Shown: positions 32,121 to 38,086 of the stretch, one piece after another | Layout of the letters: each line of letters opens with the position of its first letter | How positions within the stretch are numbered: position 1 is the stretch's first letter | Origin: Owenweeksia sp. | GTDB taxonomy: Bacteria > Bacteroidota > Bacteroidia > Flavobacteriales > Schleiferiaceae | DNA: 64,000 bases | Direction of reading: 5' to 3' | Assembly: GCA_002695025.1 (NCBI GenBank) | Contig: NZNV01000010.1 | Span: 248,001 to 312,000 of the forward strand | The notes under the pieces: model-generated | Seen by the model: only the letters and a program-made list of their open reading frames with translations | Database searches by the model: none | Told to the model about the DNA's origin: nothing | Position numbers and translations under genes: made by a program

Positions 32121-33071
32121 TTAGGCAGCAGCTTGTTTTTTGCGTTCTTCCTGTTTTTTGGCATAAGCATTGGCAGCCTCGCGTATCCACTGCCCTTCAT
32201 CATGAGCTTTATTACGGGCATCCATGCGTTGTTTGTTGCACTTGCCATTGCCTTTGATGACGCTATAGAATTCTTCCCAGTTTATTTCGCCAAAGTCATA
32301 ATGGCTGTGTTCCTCGTTCCATTTCAAATCGGGATCCGGCACGGTAAGACCCAGGAACTCGGCCTGAGGGACTGTTTTATCGATAAACTCCTGGCGCAAC
32401 TGGTCATTAGACTTCCGCTTGATCTTCCACTTCATGCTTTGGGCTGAGTTGGGAGAGTCATCATCGGTAGGTCCAAACATCATAAGAGATGGCCACCACC
32501 AACGGTTGAGTGCAGCCTGCGCCATTTCCTTTTGCTCGGCAGAACCCTGGGCAAGGGTCATCATAATCTCATAACCCTGGCGCTGGTGAAAGCTTTCCTC
32601 TTTACAAATGCGCACCATAGCCCGTGAGTACGGCCCGTAGGAAGTGCGGCATAACATCACCTGGTTGGCAATGGCAGCACCATCTACCAACCAGCCAATG
32701 GCTCCTATATCCGCCCAGGTTGGCGTAGGGTAATTGAAAATAGAGGAATATTTTGCCTTTCCGCTCAGGAGGTCCTCCACCATATCCATACGGTCGGCTC
32801 CCAGCGTTTCTGCAGCAGAATACAGGTATAAGCCGTGGCCGGCCTCATCCTGAACCTTGGCCAGCAATGCCACTTTTCTTCTAAGGGACGGAGCCCTGGT
32901 GATCCAGTTGGCCTCGGGTAACATCCCTACTACCTCACTGTGAGCATGCTGGCTTACCTGGCGGATCAGCGTCTGGCGATACTTTTCCGGCATCCAGTCT
33001 TTGGGCTCTACTTTATTTTCGGCATCTACATAATCCTGGAACTTTTGCTCCAGGTTCATTTCTGTCGTCAT
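32121..33071 (-). CDS. paaA: Phenylacetyl-CoA epoxidase catalytic subunit PaaA
   Basis: The 316-residue ferritin-like diiron protein has two visible ExxH-type iron-ligand motifs: [16 protein letters not shown] near residue 75 and [13 protein letters not shown] near residue 165. It inserts one oxygen atom into the ring of phenylacetyl-CoA, using electrons from PaaE. It is the first gene of paaABC, with a -7 element TATCTTTG 24 bases upstream and the paaE gene divergent. Confidence 0.95.
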
Positions 33072-33095
33072 AATCTTAAGAGGTTTGAAGTTCTA

Positions 33096-33103
33096 CAAAG
33101 ATA
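33096..33103 (-). promoter_or_regulatory. Bacteroidota -7 promoter element of paaABC
   Basis: TATCTTTG on the minus strand, 24 bases before the paaA ATG at 33071, fits TAnnTTTG. The same octamer serves the divergent paaE gene. Confidence 0.6.
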
Positions 33104-33190
33104 CTATTCAAAAATCATACTATCCCGGTCCGGCATATCGCATATCTTACCTTATTTACATCATCAGGACGTTTTCTGCTCCCTGCCTCT

Positions 33191-33198
33191 TATCTTTG
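33191..33198 (+). promoter_or_regulatory. Bacteroidota -7 promoter element of paaE
   Basis: TATCTTTG on the plus strand, 24 bases before the chosen paaE ATG at 33223. Its presence downstream of the in-frame codon at 33085 argues that translation starts at 33223, not earlier. Confidence 0.6.
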
Positions 33199-33222
33199 CA
33201 GCCTTCTGAAAAAACGGAAACT

Positions 33223-34368
33223 ATGTTGAAATTCTTTAAGAAGGCCCTGGGCAACAGTAAATCGCTGATGAGGGATGGCAAGCCCACCTCAAGGCCCCGC
33301 TTTCATAACCTCCGTGTGCAGGACATCACCCGTGAAACCGAAGATTGTGTTTCTATAGCTTTTGAAATTCCTGAAGATCTGAGTGAACACTATCGTTTTA
33401 TCCCGGGCCAGTATCTAACCCTGGAGGCGGAAATAAACGGTGAGGCGGTAAGGCGATCCTATTCGCTTTGCTCCAGCCCGGCTGACGGAGAACTGAGAGT
33501 AGCGGTTAAAAAGGTGGAAGACGGACGTTTTTCATCCTGGGCCAATACGGAGCTTACCGTAGGTACTGAGATGAGGGTAATGACCCCCGAAGGTAAGTTC
33601 AATGCCATTATAGATAAAGCGCATCGTCATAATTATGTGGCCTTTGCCGCTGGTTCTGGAATAACCCCGGTTTTCAGCATTATGAAATCCGTTCTGGAAA
33701 TGGAGCCTGAGAGTACTTTTACGCTCTTCTATGGAAATAAAACCAGCAACACCATCATTTTCAGGGATAAGATAGATGGCCTGAAAAACCGCTACATGAA
33801 CCGTTTGGAGGTTCATCATATCCTGAGCCGTGAAGATCAGGGGACAGACTACCTGAAAGGACGTATTGATGAAGGTAAATGTATCTCCTTCTCTGAGAAA
33901 TTCTTTGACCCGGCTGATACGGATGCTTTCTTCATTTGTGGCCCCGAGGCCATGATCAATTGTGTGAATGACAGCCTCACCAAAATGGGTGTAAGCACGA
34001 ATAAGATCCACTACGAACTCTTTACCTCTCCTTCACAGAATATTGCGCATAAGACCAAGGTCAGTGCCGGTAAAAAGCAAGAAACGATTAAAAGTGAAGT
34101 GACGGTGATCCTGGATGGTGAGGAAACCCACTTTGGAATTGCCTCAGACGGAAAGGCTATACTGGACGCAGCGCTGGATGCAGGGGCCGATGTGCCATAC
34201 GCCTGCAAGGGTGCTGTATGCTGTACCTGCCGTGCGCGGGTGCTGGAAGGTTCTGTTGAAATGGAAATGAACTATGCCCTGGAAGATGATGAGGTGGAGG
34301 ATGGCTATGTCCTAACCTGTCAGAGCCACCCCACTTCCGATAAGGTGGTCGTTAGTTATGATGAGTAA
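33223..34368 (+). CDS. paaE: Phenylacetyl-CoA epoxidase reductase PaaE
   Basis: This 381-residue flavin reductase-ferredoxin fusion has an FAD-binding barrel with RRSYSLCSSP, an NAD(P) domain with GSGITPVFSIMKS, and a plant-type [2Fe-2S] domain at the C-terminus with cysteines at 328, 333, 336 and 366 (CKGAVCCTC and LTCQ). It passes electrons from NADPH to the PaaA diiron site. The frame is open upstream to 33085, but MLKFFKKALG is the natural start, because the promoter octamer lies between the two. It is divergent from paaABC rather than downstream of it as in E. coli. Confidence 0.92.
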   Translation: MLKFFKKALGNSKSLMRDGKPTSRPRFHNLRVQDITRETEDCVSIAFEIPEDLSEHYRFIPGQYLTLEAEINGEAVRRSYSLCSSPADGELRVAVKKVEDGRFSSWANTELTVGTEMRVMTPEGKFNAIIDKAHRHNYVAFAAGSGITPVFSIMKSVLEMEPESTFTLFYGNKTSNTIIFRDKIDGLKNRYMNRLEVHHILSREDQGTDYLKGRIDEGKCISFSEKFFDPADTDAFFICGPEAMINCVNDSLTKMGVSTNKIHYELFTSPSQNIAHKTKVSAGKKQETIKSEVTVILDGEETHFGIASDGKAILDAALDAGADVPYACKGAVCCTCRARVLEGSVEMEMNYALEDDEVEDGYVLTCQSHPTSDKVVVSYDE

Positions 34369-34405: not shown

Positions 34406-34843
34406 TTATTTCACCATGTCCACATGCCATATCCCAAAGTCAAGGTATGGCTGGGTAATGGTCTGGAAGCCCTGGGTAGCATAAAAATCTTCGAGGTACA
34501 CCTGGGCCTGTATCTTCAGAGCCTGGCCTGGATACATGCTTTCAGCCTCGCTCACCGCAATTTCAAATATCCTTCTTCCCAACTGCATGCCCCGGTAATC
34601 AGGGTGTACACACACACGACCGATGGAAGGCTCATCATAGAGTTCGTGCGGGGCCACAACACGCGCATAAGCCACCAGCTGTTGATAGTTATAGCCGGTA
34701 ATATGTATGGAATGCTGATCGTGATAATCCACCTCCTGGTAAGCACATTTTTGTTCCACCACAAATATACGGGTGCGCAAGGCAAGAATATCGTAGAGCT
34801 CAATGGTACTTAGCTGCTTAAATTCACGGATGCTGATTCTCAT
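34406..34843 (-). CDS. elaA: ElaA-family GNAT N-acetyltransferase
   Basis: The 145-residue protein follows E. coli ElaA: LYDILALRTRIFVVEQKCAY, LVAYARVV, the acetyl-CoA loop IGRVCVHPDYRGMQLGRRI (in place of Q/RxxGxG/A), and QAQVYLEDFYATQGFQ. The substrate is unknown. A TAATTTTG element lies five bases before the ATG, squeezed against the U-tract of the upstream operon's terminator. Confidence 0.85.
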   Translation of the reverse strand: MRISIREFKQLSTIELYDILALRTRIFVVEQKCAYQEVDYHDQHSIHITGYNYQQLVAYARVVAPHELYDEPSIGRVCVHPDYRGMQLGRRIFEIAVSEAESMYPGQALKIQAQVYLEDFYATQGFQTITQPYLDFGIWHVDMVK

Positions 34844-34856: not shown

Positions 34857-34883
34857 AAAAACCCGGGTTAAGTACCCGGGTTT
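34856..34883 (-). terminator. Rho-independent terminator of the sigma / coiled-coil / barrel operon
   Basis: A perfect 10-base-pair stem, AAACCCGGGT with ACCCGGGTTT, and a five-base loop, followed on the minus strand by six U. It begins 26 bases after the stop codon of 34909-36222. Confidence 0.9.
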
Positions 34884-34908
34884 CGGAAACTAAATTATGC
34901 GGCTGGTC

Positions 34909-36222
34909 TTAGAGCGTTAGCCCAATGCTAACCGCTGCCATTTGGTAGTTGGCGGGTAAATTCTCGAAGTTAAGGGGTCCTTTTCCGCTTTGGAAAAAGC
35001 TGTTCAGGTCATATTTTGCGGTAAGCTTAAGGTTTTGCCAGCCTACCTGGGCCATCACGCCATACCGGAAAGGAACTGTATAAAAATCATTCTCACGTTC
35101 TTCTTCAACCTTCGCTCCTTCAAAATCATTGAACTCGGTCTCCCGTTCACTGTGAATGCGAAAACCTACGTACCCCCCCAATCCAAGGGTAAAAGCCTCA
35201 TCCATTTCACCCACATCGCTCAGGTCCAGCTGAAGCATGAGGGGAATGTTGATGTAGGTAATCTCAAACTTAGATTTGGCATAGCTGTTAGTATCCGCCA
35301 CAAAATCCGTGCGGTTGGCTCCTTTATAGATAATGTTATCTCCGTAAAGGCGGAAGTTATGCCAGCTGATCTCGCCTCCCCACTTAAAGTAATATTTACT
35401 GTAAGGGTTACCGATACGCGTCTTACCACCCAGGCCCAGTTCAAATACGGTGGATTTCCAGAAATTCTGTTCGGCAGGCTCATCGTAAACAAAGTACTGT
35501 CCGTCTTCCAGCAGCTGGTTAAAACCGAAGTTTATGTCAAAGTAGGTTTCGGTGCGGTCAATCTCTTTATGCTCATCACCATCCCGTTCGTTTTCCTCAT
35601 CCTTAAAGCGGAGGGCAAAGGGTTTGTCATCATCTTCTCCTCCCTGGATAATTATACCGTTATCTGAAATAATGATCTTTTGCTTCCGCTTTTCCCCGGG
35701 CTCACTTTCCGTCTTGTTTTCCTCGGCATATGGAATACTCGGAAGGGGGGGCAAGGGAGGTATACTGCCTATGGCACCTTCTCTTTCTGCCTCGGCTTCC
35801 ATCTGGGCTTCCCAAGCCTCCATCTGGCTTTCATACTGCTCTGCCCAGGCTTCCCAGCGCTCTCCATAGGCTTCGCCCCAGTCTTCCATAAGGTCACCAA
35901 TAACTTCCATGCTGTCTTCTGTGCGCTCCACTATAGCCTCTTTCATCTCTTCAGCCTGCTCATCGGTAATCTCGCCTTTCCTGCGCTGCGCTTCCACGCG
36001 ATCAATAAGCTCCATTTGCTTTTGTTGGAGTTTAGTGGTCTTTTCCACCAGTTCACGGATCACCCTGTTCAGGTCCATTTCGGACAGAGAGCGGAGGTCT
36101 TCGGCCCGAAGGGTAATCTGGTTTCCTTCAATGGCCACTTCCAGGGAGTCCTTTTCAGGCTGTGCAAAAGCAAGGGTGCTTGTGAACATCAGCGCACCTG
36201 CCAGTTTCAATGCTCTTTTCAT
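34909..36222 (-). CDS. Secreted coiled-coil protein with C-terminal outer-membrane beta-barrel-like domain
   Basis: The 437-residue protein has a signal peptide (to about residue 20, TLAFAQ). A long helical region (30-150) contains tryptophan-bearing repeats (GEAYGERWEAWAEQYESQ, then MEAWEAQMEAEAERE). A proline-rich hinge (about 155-165, PPLPPLPSIP) leads into an acidic stretch and a C-terminal domain (about 225-437) of alternating beta strands ending in YQMAAVSIGLTL, typical of small outer-membrane barrels. It is the last gene of the sigma-factor operon. The inference is that the barrel sits in the outer membrane and the coiled coil reaches into the periplasm, possibly to contact the small coiled-coil protein or the anti-sigma factor. 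The function is not known. Confidence 0.8.
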   Translation of the reverse strand: MKRALKLAGALMFTSTLAFAQPEKDSLEVAIEGNQITLRAEDLRSLSEMDLNRVIRELVEKTTKLQQKQMELIDRVEAQRRKGEITDEQAEEMKEAIVERTEDSMEVIGDLMEDWGEAYGERWEAWAEQYESQMEAWEAQMEAEAEREGAIGSIPPLPPLPSIPYAEENKTESEPGEKRKQKIIISDNGIIIQGGEDDDKPFALRFKDEENERDGDEHKEIDRTETYFDINFGFNQLLEDGQYFVYDEPAEQNFWKSTVFELGLGGKTRIGNPYSKYYFKWGGEISWHNFRLYGDNIIYKGANRTDFVADTNSYAKSKFEITYINIPLMLQLDLSDVGEMDEAFTLGLGGYVGFRIHSERETEFNDFEGAKVEEERENDFYTVPFRYGVMAQVGWQNLKLTAKYDLNSFFQSGKGPLNFENLPANYQMAAVSIGLTL

Positions 36223-36244
36223 TTTTGTGTGTTTTTAGTTTGTT

Positions 36245-36730
36245 TTAATCTTCGTTGGGCTCATTGTCTTCCGGAGTGGGTGGTACCGGAGGGGTGGGCA
36301 TGTTCTTCATTCCAGCTTCAAGGTCTTTCTGCATTTCTTCGGCCCAAGCCTGCATTTTTTGTGAGAATGCCTGTGCCCACTCTTCCATCTTTTCCCCATT
36401 CTCTTCTGTCCAGGCTTCCATCTTAGGGCCGTTCTCTTCTGCCCACACTTCCATGCGTTCCGCAAAAGCCTCCATGCGTTCTTCAAACTCTTCAGCTCGT
36501 TTCTCCATGGCTTCTTCGCGGGCTTCCCGCTCCTCTTTGCTCAGGGAGTTGCTGTGGTCATACTCTGAAATCCTTCGCTCCAGGTCTTCCGTAAAATCCT
36601 GTACATCCTTCTCCATTTTTTCCAACTCTGCGTTGAGCTTTTGCATTGCTTCGGAATTATGGCTTTTTTCAGTTTGGGCAAACACAGTCCCTGTCAGCGC
36701 TATGGCGCAGATTAGTAAAATCCTTTTCAT
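36245..36730 (-). CDS. Small exported tryptophan-hendecad coiled-coil protein
   Basis: The 161-residue protein has a signal peptide (ending GTVFAQ). The body is almost all helix-forming, rich in glutamate, methionine and tryptophan. From about residue 85 an 11-residue unit repeats: MEVWAEENGPK, MEAWTEENGEK, MEEWAQAFSQK, MQAWAEEMQK. This is a hendecad coiled coil with one aromatic residue per unit. The tail is proline-rich and acidic (PTPPVPPTPEDNEPNED). The next gene in the operon (34909-36222) carries the same kind of W repeat, so the two may form a mixed coiled coil. I know no named family. Confidence 0.78.
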   Translation of the reverse strand: MKRILLICAIALTGTVFAQTEKSHNSEAMQKLNAELEKMEKDVQDFTEDLERRISEYDHSNSLSKEEREAREEAMEKRAEEFEERMEAFAERMEVWAEENGPKMEAWTEENGEKMEEWAQAFSQKMQAWAEEMQKDLEAGMKNMPTPPVPPTPEDNEPNED

Positions 36731-36743
36731 AATGTAGATGGGT

Positions 36744-37469
36744 TTAGTTGTTAAATAGTTTTCCCAGGTTTATTTCCAACTGGGGCTTGCCTTTGGTTTC
36801 TGTTTTAGGAAGTTCCACTGGCTCGCCATTCAGAAGGTTGGTGAACTGATCATTAGCATACGCTACAACTCTATCCTTAATCCCGGGTTTTTCTTTTTTC
36901 TCTTCCTCCTTGGCAGCATAAAAGCTTTTTTGGGTTACCGGCACCGTGTATTTGAATTTTACTACCGGCTTTACAGGGGTCTTTTCTTGCAGGGAAACAC
37001 TTTCCGGTTCAAATTCATCTTCAACGGCCAATTGAGCCTCATCCACCAAGGCCGGTTCTGTTTCTACAAAGTGGTAGTTACGGGTGGCAGAGTTCCGGAT
37101 AATAGGCTCGATCTTTCTTTTGGTTGGCTCAGCCTGGTTTTCCTTCTTCTCGCCTTCTGCAGCCTTTTCCTTTGGCTCATCAACCGCTCCTGCTTTATCC
37201 TTCGTGGTATTCTGCTCCTGGGAAGACACCTTTCCACGGCTGGGCTCAATATGCATCAAGTCTCTTTCATTCTGTGAAAAGTATACCCAGGACGACACAC
37301 CCAGCAAGAGGGTAACCACGGCTGCCCGCATCCAGTAATACCCTTTGCGACCGGAACTCGTATGGTTTATGCCGGCATCTATTTTTGCCCATACTGCCTC
37401 CGAAGGCTTTATCTCTTTGTGTTGAAGTTCTCTTTTAAAGAGCTCGTCAATCGGGTTTTCTTCTTTCAT
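36744..37469 (-). CDS. Single-pass anti-sigma-factor-like membrane protein
   Basis: The 241-residue protein has a short cytoplasmic head (residues 1-42) with the motif DELFKRELQHKEIKPSEAVW, common in Bacteroidota anti-sigma factors. A single transmembrane helix (about 45-64, RAAVVTLLLGVSSWVYF) and a charged periplasmic region follow, ending in LEINLGKLFNN. Its start overlaps the sigma-factor stop by four bases (ATGA), the usual sigma/anti-sigma arrangement. It would hold the ECF sigma at the inner membrane until released. There is no zinc-binding HxxxCxxC motif. Confidence 0.78.
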   Translation of the reverse strand: MKEENPIDELFKRELQHKEIKPSEAVWAKIDAGINHTSSGRKGYYWMRAAVVTLLLGVSSWVYFSQNERDLMHIEPSRGKVSSQEQNTTKDKAGAVDEPKEKAAEGEKKENQAEPTKRKIEPIIRNSATRNYHFVETEPALVDEAQLAVEDEFEPESVSLQEKTPVKPVVKFKYTVPVTQKSFYAAKEEEKKEKPGIKDRVVAYANDQFTNLLNGEPVELPKTETKGKPQLEINLGKLFNN

Positions 37470-38047
37470 TGCTCCTTGTATAAAAGTTCGTTCTTATCCA
37501 ATTTATCGCGAAGTGCTTTCCTGGCTTTACTCAATTGTGATTTGGAGGTATTTTCAGAAATGTCCAGCATATCACCTATCTCCTTATGGGAATACCCTTC
37601 TACTGCGTACAGGTTAAAAACCGTGCGGTACCCCAGCGGCAGTTCATTGATCATCATCATCAGGTGTTCAGCTTCCCACTGATCATTTAGGTTTTCGTGT
37701 GAGAGGGAAGAATGGTTTTCTTCTTCCACCTCTACAAAAAGGTTTTTCTGGTAGCGGATGTAGTTCAATGACTCATTGATCATGATCCTGCGTATCCACC
37801 CTCCCAGGTTGCCCTCAGCCTTAAACTGGTCCAGTCTTGAAAAGACCTTTATAAAAGCATTGGAAAGAACTTCTTCGGCATCTTCAATGGTTTTTACATA
37901 TCTCCTGCATACGCCCAGCATCTGTCCGCAAAACCGGTCGTACAACTCCCTTTGGGCGCGACTGTCGCCCTTCAGGCATTGCCTGACCAATTTTTGTTCG
38001 TTAGTTGGTAGTCGTAGCAGTTTTCCCATTGTTTTGATTGCCGTCAT
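37466..38047 (-). CDS. ECF-type RNA polymerase sigma factor
   Basis: The 193-residue protein has sigma region 2 (RAQRELYDRFCGQMLGVCRR, AEEVLSNAFIKVFSRLDQF, GGWIRRIMINESLNYIR) and region 4 (LPLGYRTVFNLYAVEGYSHK, then EIGDMLDISENTSKSQLSKA), separated by an acidic linker. The start may be ATG at 38047 or the in-frame ATG at 38029 (MGKLL). A -7 element inside a perfect dyad precedes the gene, suggesting autoregulation. It heads a four-gene operon with its anti-sigma factor, a coiled-coil protein and a barrel protein. Confidence 0.93.
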   Translation of the reverse strand: MTAIKTMGKLLRLPTNEQKLVRQCLKGDSRAQRELYDRFCGQMLGVCRRYVKTIEDAEEVLSNAFIKVFSRLDQFKAEGNLGGWIRRIMINESLNYIRYQKNLFVEVEEENHSSLSHENLNDQWEAEHLMMMINELPLGYRTVFNLYAVEGYSHKEIGDMLDISENTSKSQLSKARKALRDKLDKNELLYKEQ

Positions 38048-38059
38048 TGTAATGACACT

Positions 38060-38086
38060 CCTTAGGCAAAGGTAAGTTGCCTAAGG
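38060..38086 (-). promoter_or_regulatory. Dyad operator overlapping the sigma-operon promoter
   Basis: CCTTAGGCAA (38060-38069) and TTGCCTAAGG (38077-38086) form a perfect 10-base inverted repeat with a seven-base spacer. The -7 element TACCTTTG (38074-38067 on the minus strand) lies inside it. The dyad begins 13 bases before the ATG at 38047. It could be a repressor site or an RNA hairpin in the leader. Confidence 0.6.

Follow-up and report, generated by a model that had tools for sequence, protein, structure and literature searches.

How can an extracytoplasmic function (ECF) sigma factor be governed from the outer membrane when its anti-sigma factor carries no outer-membrane domain of its own? 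The question is raised by a four-gene operon in a 64,000-nucleotide stretch of DNA (hereafter the window) from the 4.46 Mb genome of an Owenweeksia species. Among named organisms, this genome is closest to uncultured Cryomorphaceae and Owenweeksia (Flavobacteriales). Little is understood of how Bacteroidota sense envelope stress, and to our knowledge the dual membrane-spanning anti-sigma factors (Dma), known from Bacteroides, are the only trans-envelope class described in the phylum. Dma proteins combine a sigma-binding N-terminus, one transmembrane helix, a long disordered tether and an outer-membrane barrel in one chain (PMC13088901). The operon in the window encodes an ECF sigma factor (SIG), a single-pass anti-sigma factor (ANT), a small secreted protein (HEN) and an outer-membrane barrel protein (BAR). 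The conserved core is SIG-ANT-BAR, which is found class-wide, and HEN is optional. We put at about 50% the probability that the three core proteins form an envelope-sensing circuit, with HEN as an optional fourth part.

The order of the four genes on the minus strand, the ATGA overlap and the single terminator, all reported in the initial annotation, were confirmed by coordinates, gene families and a stem with a T-rich tail. The features are as follows, those within ANT and BAR being drawn in part from structural models (pLDDT, predicted local distance difference test).

34909..38047, minus strand: four-gene operon SIG-ANT-HEN-BAR, with little space between genes (SIG and ANT overlap by ATGA, and the next two junctions are 13 and 22 nt wide)
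38053..38081, minus strand: conserved ECF-type promoter, GGCAAC-N18-TGTCA, a motif present upstream of SIG in relatives
37466..38047, minus strand: SIG, ECF sigma factor, 193 aa as called (PF04542, PF08281, TIGR02937)
36744..37469, minus strand: ANT, single-pass anti-sigma factor, 241 aa, with a 4-nt ATGA overlap with SIG and an N-terminus homologous in all relatives
36882..37256, minus strand: predicted disordered periplasmic linker of ANT, residues 72-196 (pLDDT mostly 50-60, low conservation)
36747..36881, minus strand: conserved periplasmic C-terminal motif of ANT, residues 197-241, a putative docking element (conservation and model)
36245..36730, minus strand: HEN, small secreted helical protein, 161 aa, with a signal-peptide-like start and tryptophan (W) every 11 residues
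34909..36222, minus strand: BAR, outer-membrane barrel protein with an N-terminal periplasmic helical hairpin, 437 aa (PF13568; model)
35782..36072, minus strand: helical region of BAR with the W-hendecad stretch, residues 51-147 (model; W 115, 126 and 137 at lag 11)
34858..34884, minus strand: intrinsic terminator 3' of BAR, an 11-pair stem followed by a T-rich tail

A conserved core of sigma factor, anti-sigma factor and barrel

The gene-order search across Flavobacteriales that the initial annotation had proposed recovered SIG-ANT-BAR repeatedly, with HEN as an optional member, within the family of the window (f1) as well as in further families of Flavobacteriales. Eighty loci in titled genome records were found from BAR homology alone, and nearly all of those for which upstream sequence is available carry ANT and SIG directly upstream of BAR. 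The arrangement is present in Flavobacterium, Algoriphagus, Psychroserpens, Gilvibacter, Phaeocystidibacter and Cytophagales, in one or two copies per genome, and thus includes cultivable Flavobacterium and Algoriphagus. Five Algoriphagus loci (L317, L319, L332, L337 and L340) have tandem genes of 343 and 266 aa after the anti-sigma gene, the second of which is a BAR-type barrel by profile.

The relation of this two-gene arrangement to one-chain anti-sigma factors was followed with a profile of the ANT N-terminus (A1), which was searched in 392 genomes of the phylum and matched in 132. From these matches 100 loci were taken, 99 of which yielded ANT. The lengths of the proteins are bimodal, with 49 at 203-317 aa and 50 at 381-895 aa, and the N-terminal anti-sigma and transmembrane segment is homologous in both classes, as one profile matches both. 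The gene directly 3' of a short ANT matches the BAR-barrel profile in 46 of 49 cases, the three exceptions being two unrelated next genes and one odd case (L258), whereas the gene that follows a long ANT does so in 0 of 27. Using Pfam only, which is less sensitive, PF13568 was detected inside 33/50 long and 0/49 short ANT proteins, and in the next gene after 23/49 short and 0/27 long ones. The long ANT proteins are mostly Dma-like in build; a few carry Plug or VWA domains. The genome of the window carries both kinds. The initial annotation had proposed a trans-envelope path split among separate proteins, and the occurrence of one-chain and two-gene forms in the same phylum supports this, although not the division by way of hendecad proteins that it envisaged.

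Judged by profile, the in-chain barrels and the BAR barrels are different subfamilies, since 0/50 long proteins match the BAR-type profile. In a tree of 111 sigma factors, 52 of the 54 members of one supported clade (97/89) are split, and the number of architecture changes is 5, compared with 36.8 for shuffled labels. The clustering of the split sigma factors and the scarcity of changes argue that the split form is an old, stable and mostly separate lineage. Recent fission of a Dma gene was considered as its origin and is unlikely, whichever of the two forms came first, given the lack of BAR-profile matches among the in-chain barrels and the largely separate clade of the split sigma factors.

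Several individual loci deserve mention. Two anti-sigma factors of 748 and 895 aa (L242 and L247) lie inside the mostly split sigma clade. The odd case noted above, in the genome of the window (G000:C12:6062-11162), consists of a 254-aa ANT-like frame and, 28 nt further on, a barrel-like frame of 198 aa that lacks a signal peptide. It gives the impression of a one-chain form that has been interrupted rather than of a genuine split operon. Further long anti-sigma factors with the same N-terminal segment, of 424-484 aa, are encoded in this genome (L219, L239, L257 and L259), and three of the four have the terminal aromatic residues that outer-membrane barrels typically show.

Architecture of ANT and BAR

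ANT has one transmembrane helix, at residues 44-66, and no family match in Pfam and NCBIfam scans, FecR included. Its model (pLDDT 67.9) contains helices at 6-17, 24-34, 44-66 and 197-214, the last of which is isolated and confidently predicted (pLDDT about 91) beyond a linker of approximately 125 residues. Conservation follows the same pattern. The residues that are invariant in 15 relatives are largely confined to the two ends of the protein, namely D8, F11 and W27 in the cytoplasm, R48 and A50 in the membrane, and Y204, A205, Q208, G215 and P221 near the C-terminus. Mean pairwise identity drops from 0.51 and 0.43 in the N-terminal parts to about 0.2 in mid-protein and returns to 0.43 at the C-terminal end. 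A set of ANT proteins from Flavobacteriaceae has the same conservation profile with another C-terminal sequence. The model suggests that ANT is built as a tether with a docking peptide, the partner of which we infer below.

BAR, like HEN, has a signal-peptide-like start that ends in AQ. It matches PF13568 at residues 307-406 (30.1 bits, cut-off 27), and its model (pLDDT 79.7) comprises helices at 51-81 and 87-147, the latter a single continuous helix of 61 residues, then a low-confidence proline-rich linker and a barrel at 224-436. The barrel has eight strands, with pLDDT mostly above 90, and is closest to NspA (Z 14.1, 3.0 Å over 148 residues), with Z scores of 13.4-13.9 against OmpA. What the initial annotation called a barrel-like domain can accordingly be specified, with confidence in the model, as a predicted eight-stranded barrel of the OmpA/NspA type. 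With a profile match above the cut-off and a small closed barrel, BAR belongs with the small outer-membrane barrels of PF13568. Sequence searches of the PDB with BAR and ANT returned nothing useful.

SIG and its promoter

SIG is clearly an ECF sigma factor. Sigma-70 regions 2 and 4 both score above family cut-offs (PF04542, 42.9 bits; PF08281, 60.7 bits), as does TIGR02937 (92.9 bits, cut-off 42.9). Its true start is probably the second ATG, at 38029 (MGKLLRLP...), which gives a protein of 187 aa, rather than the ATG at 38047, because the promoter -10 element ends at 38053, too near the first ATG, and because close relatives start at the corresponding residue.

The pattern GCAAC-N17/18-[CTA][GA]TC[TA] occurs 5' of SIG in 50/76 loci, against 0.3 expected from Markov shuffles, and the loci that lack it include near variants such as ACAACC. 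The motif ends in CGTCT in Flavobacterium loci. By sequence it is built like an ECF promoter, and SIG is likely to autoregulate its own operon. The strict pattern has two sites in the genome of the window and one in G003. Outside the operon it shows no excess in ten genomes, where hits are about as frequent as those of a reversed control, so that the main target of the circuit is probably its own barrel. The possibility of a wide regulon finds no support in these counts.

Other genes adjoin the operon. BAR is followed, in the same orientation, by a 145-aa frame resembling an acetyltransferase (window 34406-34843), and many relatives have a gene of similar size in that position. Beyond it are frames resembling paaA (minus strand) and paaE (plus strand) of phenylacetate degradation (32121-34368). 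In most Flavobacterium loci of the series L286-L316, SIG is immediately preceded by a co-oriented gene of 325-327 aa.

HEN and the tryptophan hendecads

The 11-residue tryptophan repeats described by the initial annotation exceed chance in both proteins. In HEN, tryptophans stand at 96, 107, 118 and 129, a spacing matched in 0 of 20,000 shuffles, and in BAR, with tryptophans at 115, 123, 126 and 137, pairs 11 apart are over-represented (p 0.001). HEN also matches a hidden Markov model of BAR residues 23-165 (E 7e-17), and since this score far exceeds those of shuffled copies (maximum -2.3 bits), HEN is best read from its sequence as a copy of the BAR helical region, although such repeats can also converge. 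Pfam matches of HEN to apolipoprotein and other families fall far below the cut-offs and reflect helical composition.

The distribution of the gene is narrow. A small gene between ANT and BAR is present in 11/20 loci of the window's family and 0/58 others, and on these grounds HEN was rejected as an obligatory part of the system. It is missing even in a member of the same genus (G004, locus L064). The middle gene of genus g6 encodes no tryptophan and has no significant likeness to BAR, so that common homology of all the middle genes is unproven. The category counts for L062-L121 are approximate, as scripted gene calling missed the middle gene of L069, which is present in L265 on the same contig. 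Tryptophan hendecads are likewise rare outside the family (1/58 loci, and 4/49 in a phylum sample), and the tryptophan-rich helices look like a local, lineage-specific decoration.

These observations bear on the proposal of the initial annotation that HEN and BAR span the periplasm through their tryptophan-hendecad coiled coils and in this way reach the anti-sigma factor. The two proteins do have hendecads and sequence in common, and the unbroken helix predicted for BAR might suit such a role. However, HEN is missing from 9/20 family loci and all 58 others, the hendecads themselves are almost confined to the family, and ANT is predicted to reach outward by its own linker and terminal helix. 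Frequent occurrence of hendecad genes away from sigma and anti-sigma genes, which had been named beforehand as a finding that would speak against the bridge, was observed in part: BAR retains tryptophans at a spacing of 11 in G065 and G068, two genomes that gave no match to SIG or ANT. The helix is thus kept where no anti-sigma factor was found, and a coiled-coil bridge to ANT is therefore not supported and is very improbable.

HEN might instead be a periplasmic feedback protein or chaperone of the CpxP or Spy kind, which the pathway would induce and which would in turn dampen the pathway, without any bridging function. It is small, secreted, mostly helical by sequence, lineage-specific and encoded in the same operon, and its likeness to the BAR helical region means that it could compete for BAR's partner. 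We nevertheless regard this as unlikely, as no CpxP or Spy family appears among the listed Pfam or NCBIfam matches and the middle gene of genus g6 has neither the tryptophans nor a significant resemblance to BAR.

A proposed envelope-sensing circuit

The reading that we favour is that SIG, ANT and BAR act together to sense the state of the envelope. SIG would be held by the cytoplasmic end of ANT, as family, gene overlap and homology suggest. From there ANT is predicted to span the inner membrane once and to extend as a long disordered tether to its conserved helix, whose docking site on the outer-membrane side may be BAR itself or a component organised by BAR. Correct positioning of BAR, its abundance, or else the condition of the outer membrane would keep ANT intact. 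By analogy with the protection of FoxR by FoxA (PMC11637429), undocked ANT would be open to proteolysis and SIG would be released. SIG could then transcribe its own operon from the GCAAC...TGTC/CGTCT promoter, leading to more BAR. HEN, as a lineage-specific secreted copy, would probably bundle with the BAR helical region or compete for its target.

This circuit is favoured by the linkage of SIG and ANT to loci found through BAR, the complementarity of short and long ANT, the conservation of the split clade, the conserved ends of ANT and its C-terminal helix, the promoter motif, and the similarity of HEN to BAR. Tentatively, the proposal may be extended to a class-wide and largely vertical two-chain counterpart of Dma, in which ANT checks a dedicated small barrel by means of a short docking helix, an autoregulatory loop yields mainly that barrel, and HEN is a competitor or partner confined to one lineage.

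Several points weigh against the circuit. It depends on a contact between ANT and BAR that we infer, and the model leaves the inducing signal and the protease unnamed. The C-terminal motif of ANT differs between families and aligns poorly across them, and with no BAR-type barrel in the long anti-sigma factors, no fusion links the exact ANT-BAR pair. Furthermore, nine genomes of three genera (G006, G039, G043, G058, G059, G063, G065, G068 and G083) hold BAR with neither SIG nor ANT detected when they were searched whole for ANT (E up to 0.01) and SIG (E up to 1e-20). Several of these assemblies are incomplete (79-99%), yet the pattern repeats. In these genomes the neighbour of BAR is a large, divergent gene (725-782 aa), such as also adjoins the full operon in a relative (L095), and this shared neighbour suggests that SIG and ANT were lost from their original place. 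As BAR is kept where its regulators were not detected, it has a function of its own, and may either combine the roles of sensor and product or be a product alone.

This retention makes the main rival the reading in which BAR and HEN are merely products of the regulon and ANT is RseA-like, responding to envelope damage by way of periplasmic proteases or a different partner. The position of the promoter motif before the operon, with no excess of its strict form elsewhere, is also in keeping with such a scheme. It leaves unexplained, however, why a barrel gene follows the barrel-less anti-sigma factors and none follows the barrel-bearing ones, and why ANT has a conserved C-terminal helix past a disordered tether. 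We consider it possible, though doubtful.

The sensing circuit, if correct, would have practical consequences. A conserved split form would be genetically tractable, as barrel and anti-sigma factor could be deleted separately, unlike in Dma. The promoter motif and the candidate contact between a short peptide and a barrel are both directly testable.

Comparison with known systems

In Flavobacterium psychrophilum, an ECF/anti-sigma operon is preceded by an SM6 promoter, of the flavobacterial ECF type and with a CGT -10 box, an arrangement that recurs in the Flavobacterium loci of this study; the comparison is one of promoter form, SM6 promoters also cover type IX secretion system genes, and the species has seven ECF sigma factors (PMC9723704). 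The SigX-CfrX-OprF system of Pseudomonas aeruginosa, compared by description, resembles the operon in having a small-barrel outer-membrane protein proposed in ECF sigma control, but CfrX is soluble and the proposed complex includes an ion channel (PMC8999054).

Similar in logic are FecA/FecR/FecI and FoxA/FoxR/FoxI, which also comprise a separate ECF sigma factor, a single-pass anti-sigma factor and a barrel with an N-terminal periplasmic part (PMC11637429). Since these systems are already split, a split anti-sigma path is not new in principle, contrary to the initial annotation, which knew of no such form; a small-barrel split form, for its part, was not described in the literature searched, which excluded the original Dma and ECF reclassification papers. 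In the Fec and Fox systems a TonB-dependent transporter of 22 strands, equipped with an STN signalling domain, provides the barrel, whereas BAR is predicted to have eight strands and a helical hairpin, and gave no Plug or STN match in a Pfam scan. Similarly, FecR and FoxR have a folded periplasmic domain, whereas the periplasmic part of ANT, which has no FecR match, is predicted to be disordered save for one short helix.

The resemblance to Dma lies in architecture. ANT has the anti-sigma segment, the transmembrane helix and the long disordered tether, and the system has an outer-membrane barrel at the far end. One Dma criterion is an adjacent cognate sigma factor of the ECF21 group, and an ECF sigma gene is adjacent to ANT; in Dma, deletion of the anti-sigma factor strongly affects its own operon. 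Dma is defined in addition by control of the cognate sigma factor and of outer-membrane vesiculation, and the likeness drawn here to Dma1-3 of B. thetaiotaomicron is one of architecture, not of sequence. The Dma barrel is the C-terminus of the same chain, whereas ANT has no barrel by Pfam or model and ends in a conserved helix, and BAR is separate, exported, provided with its own helical hairpin and a member of another PF13568-type subfamily. The system lacks the defining domains of FecIRA and the single chain of Dma. By analogy, it would work like a Dma cut into two chains, with a logic like that of FecA/FecR/FecI.

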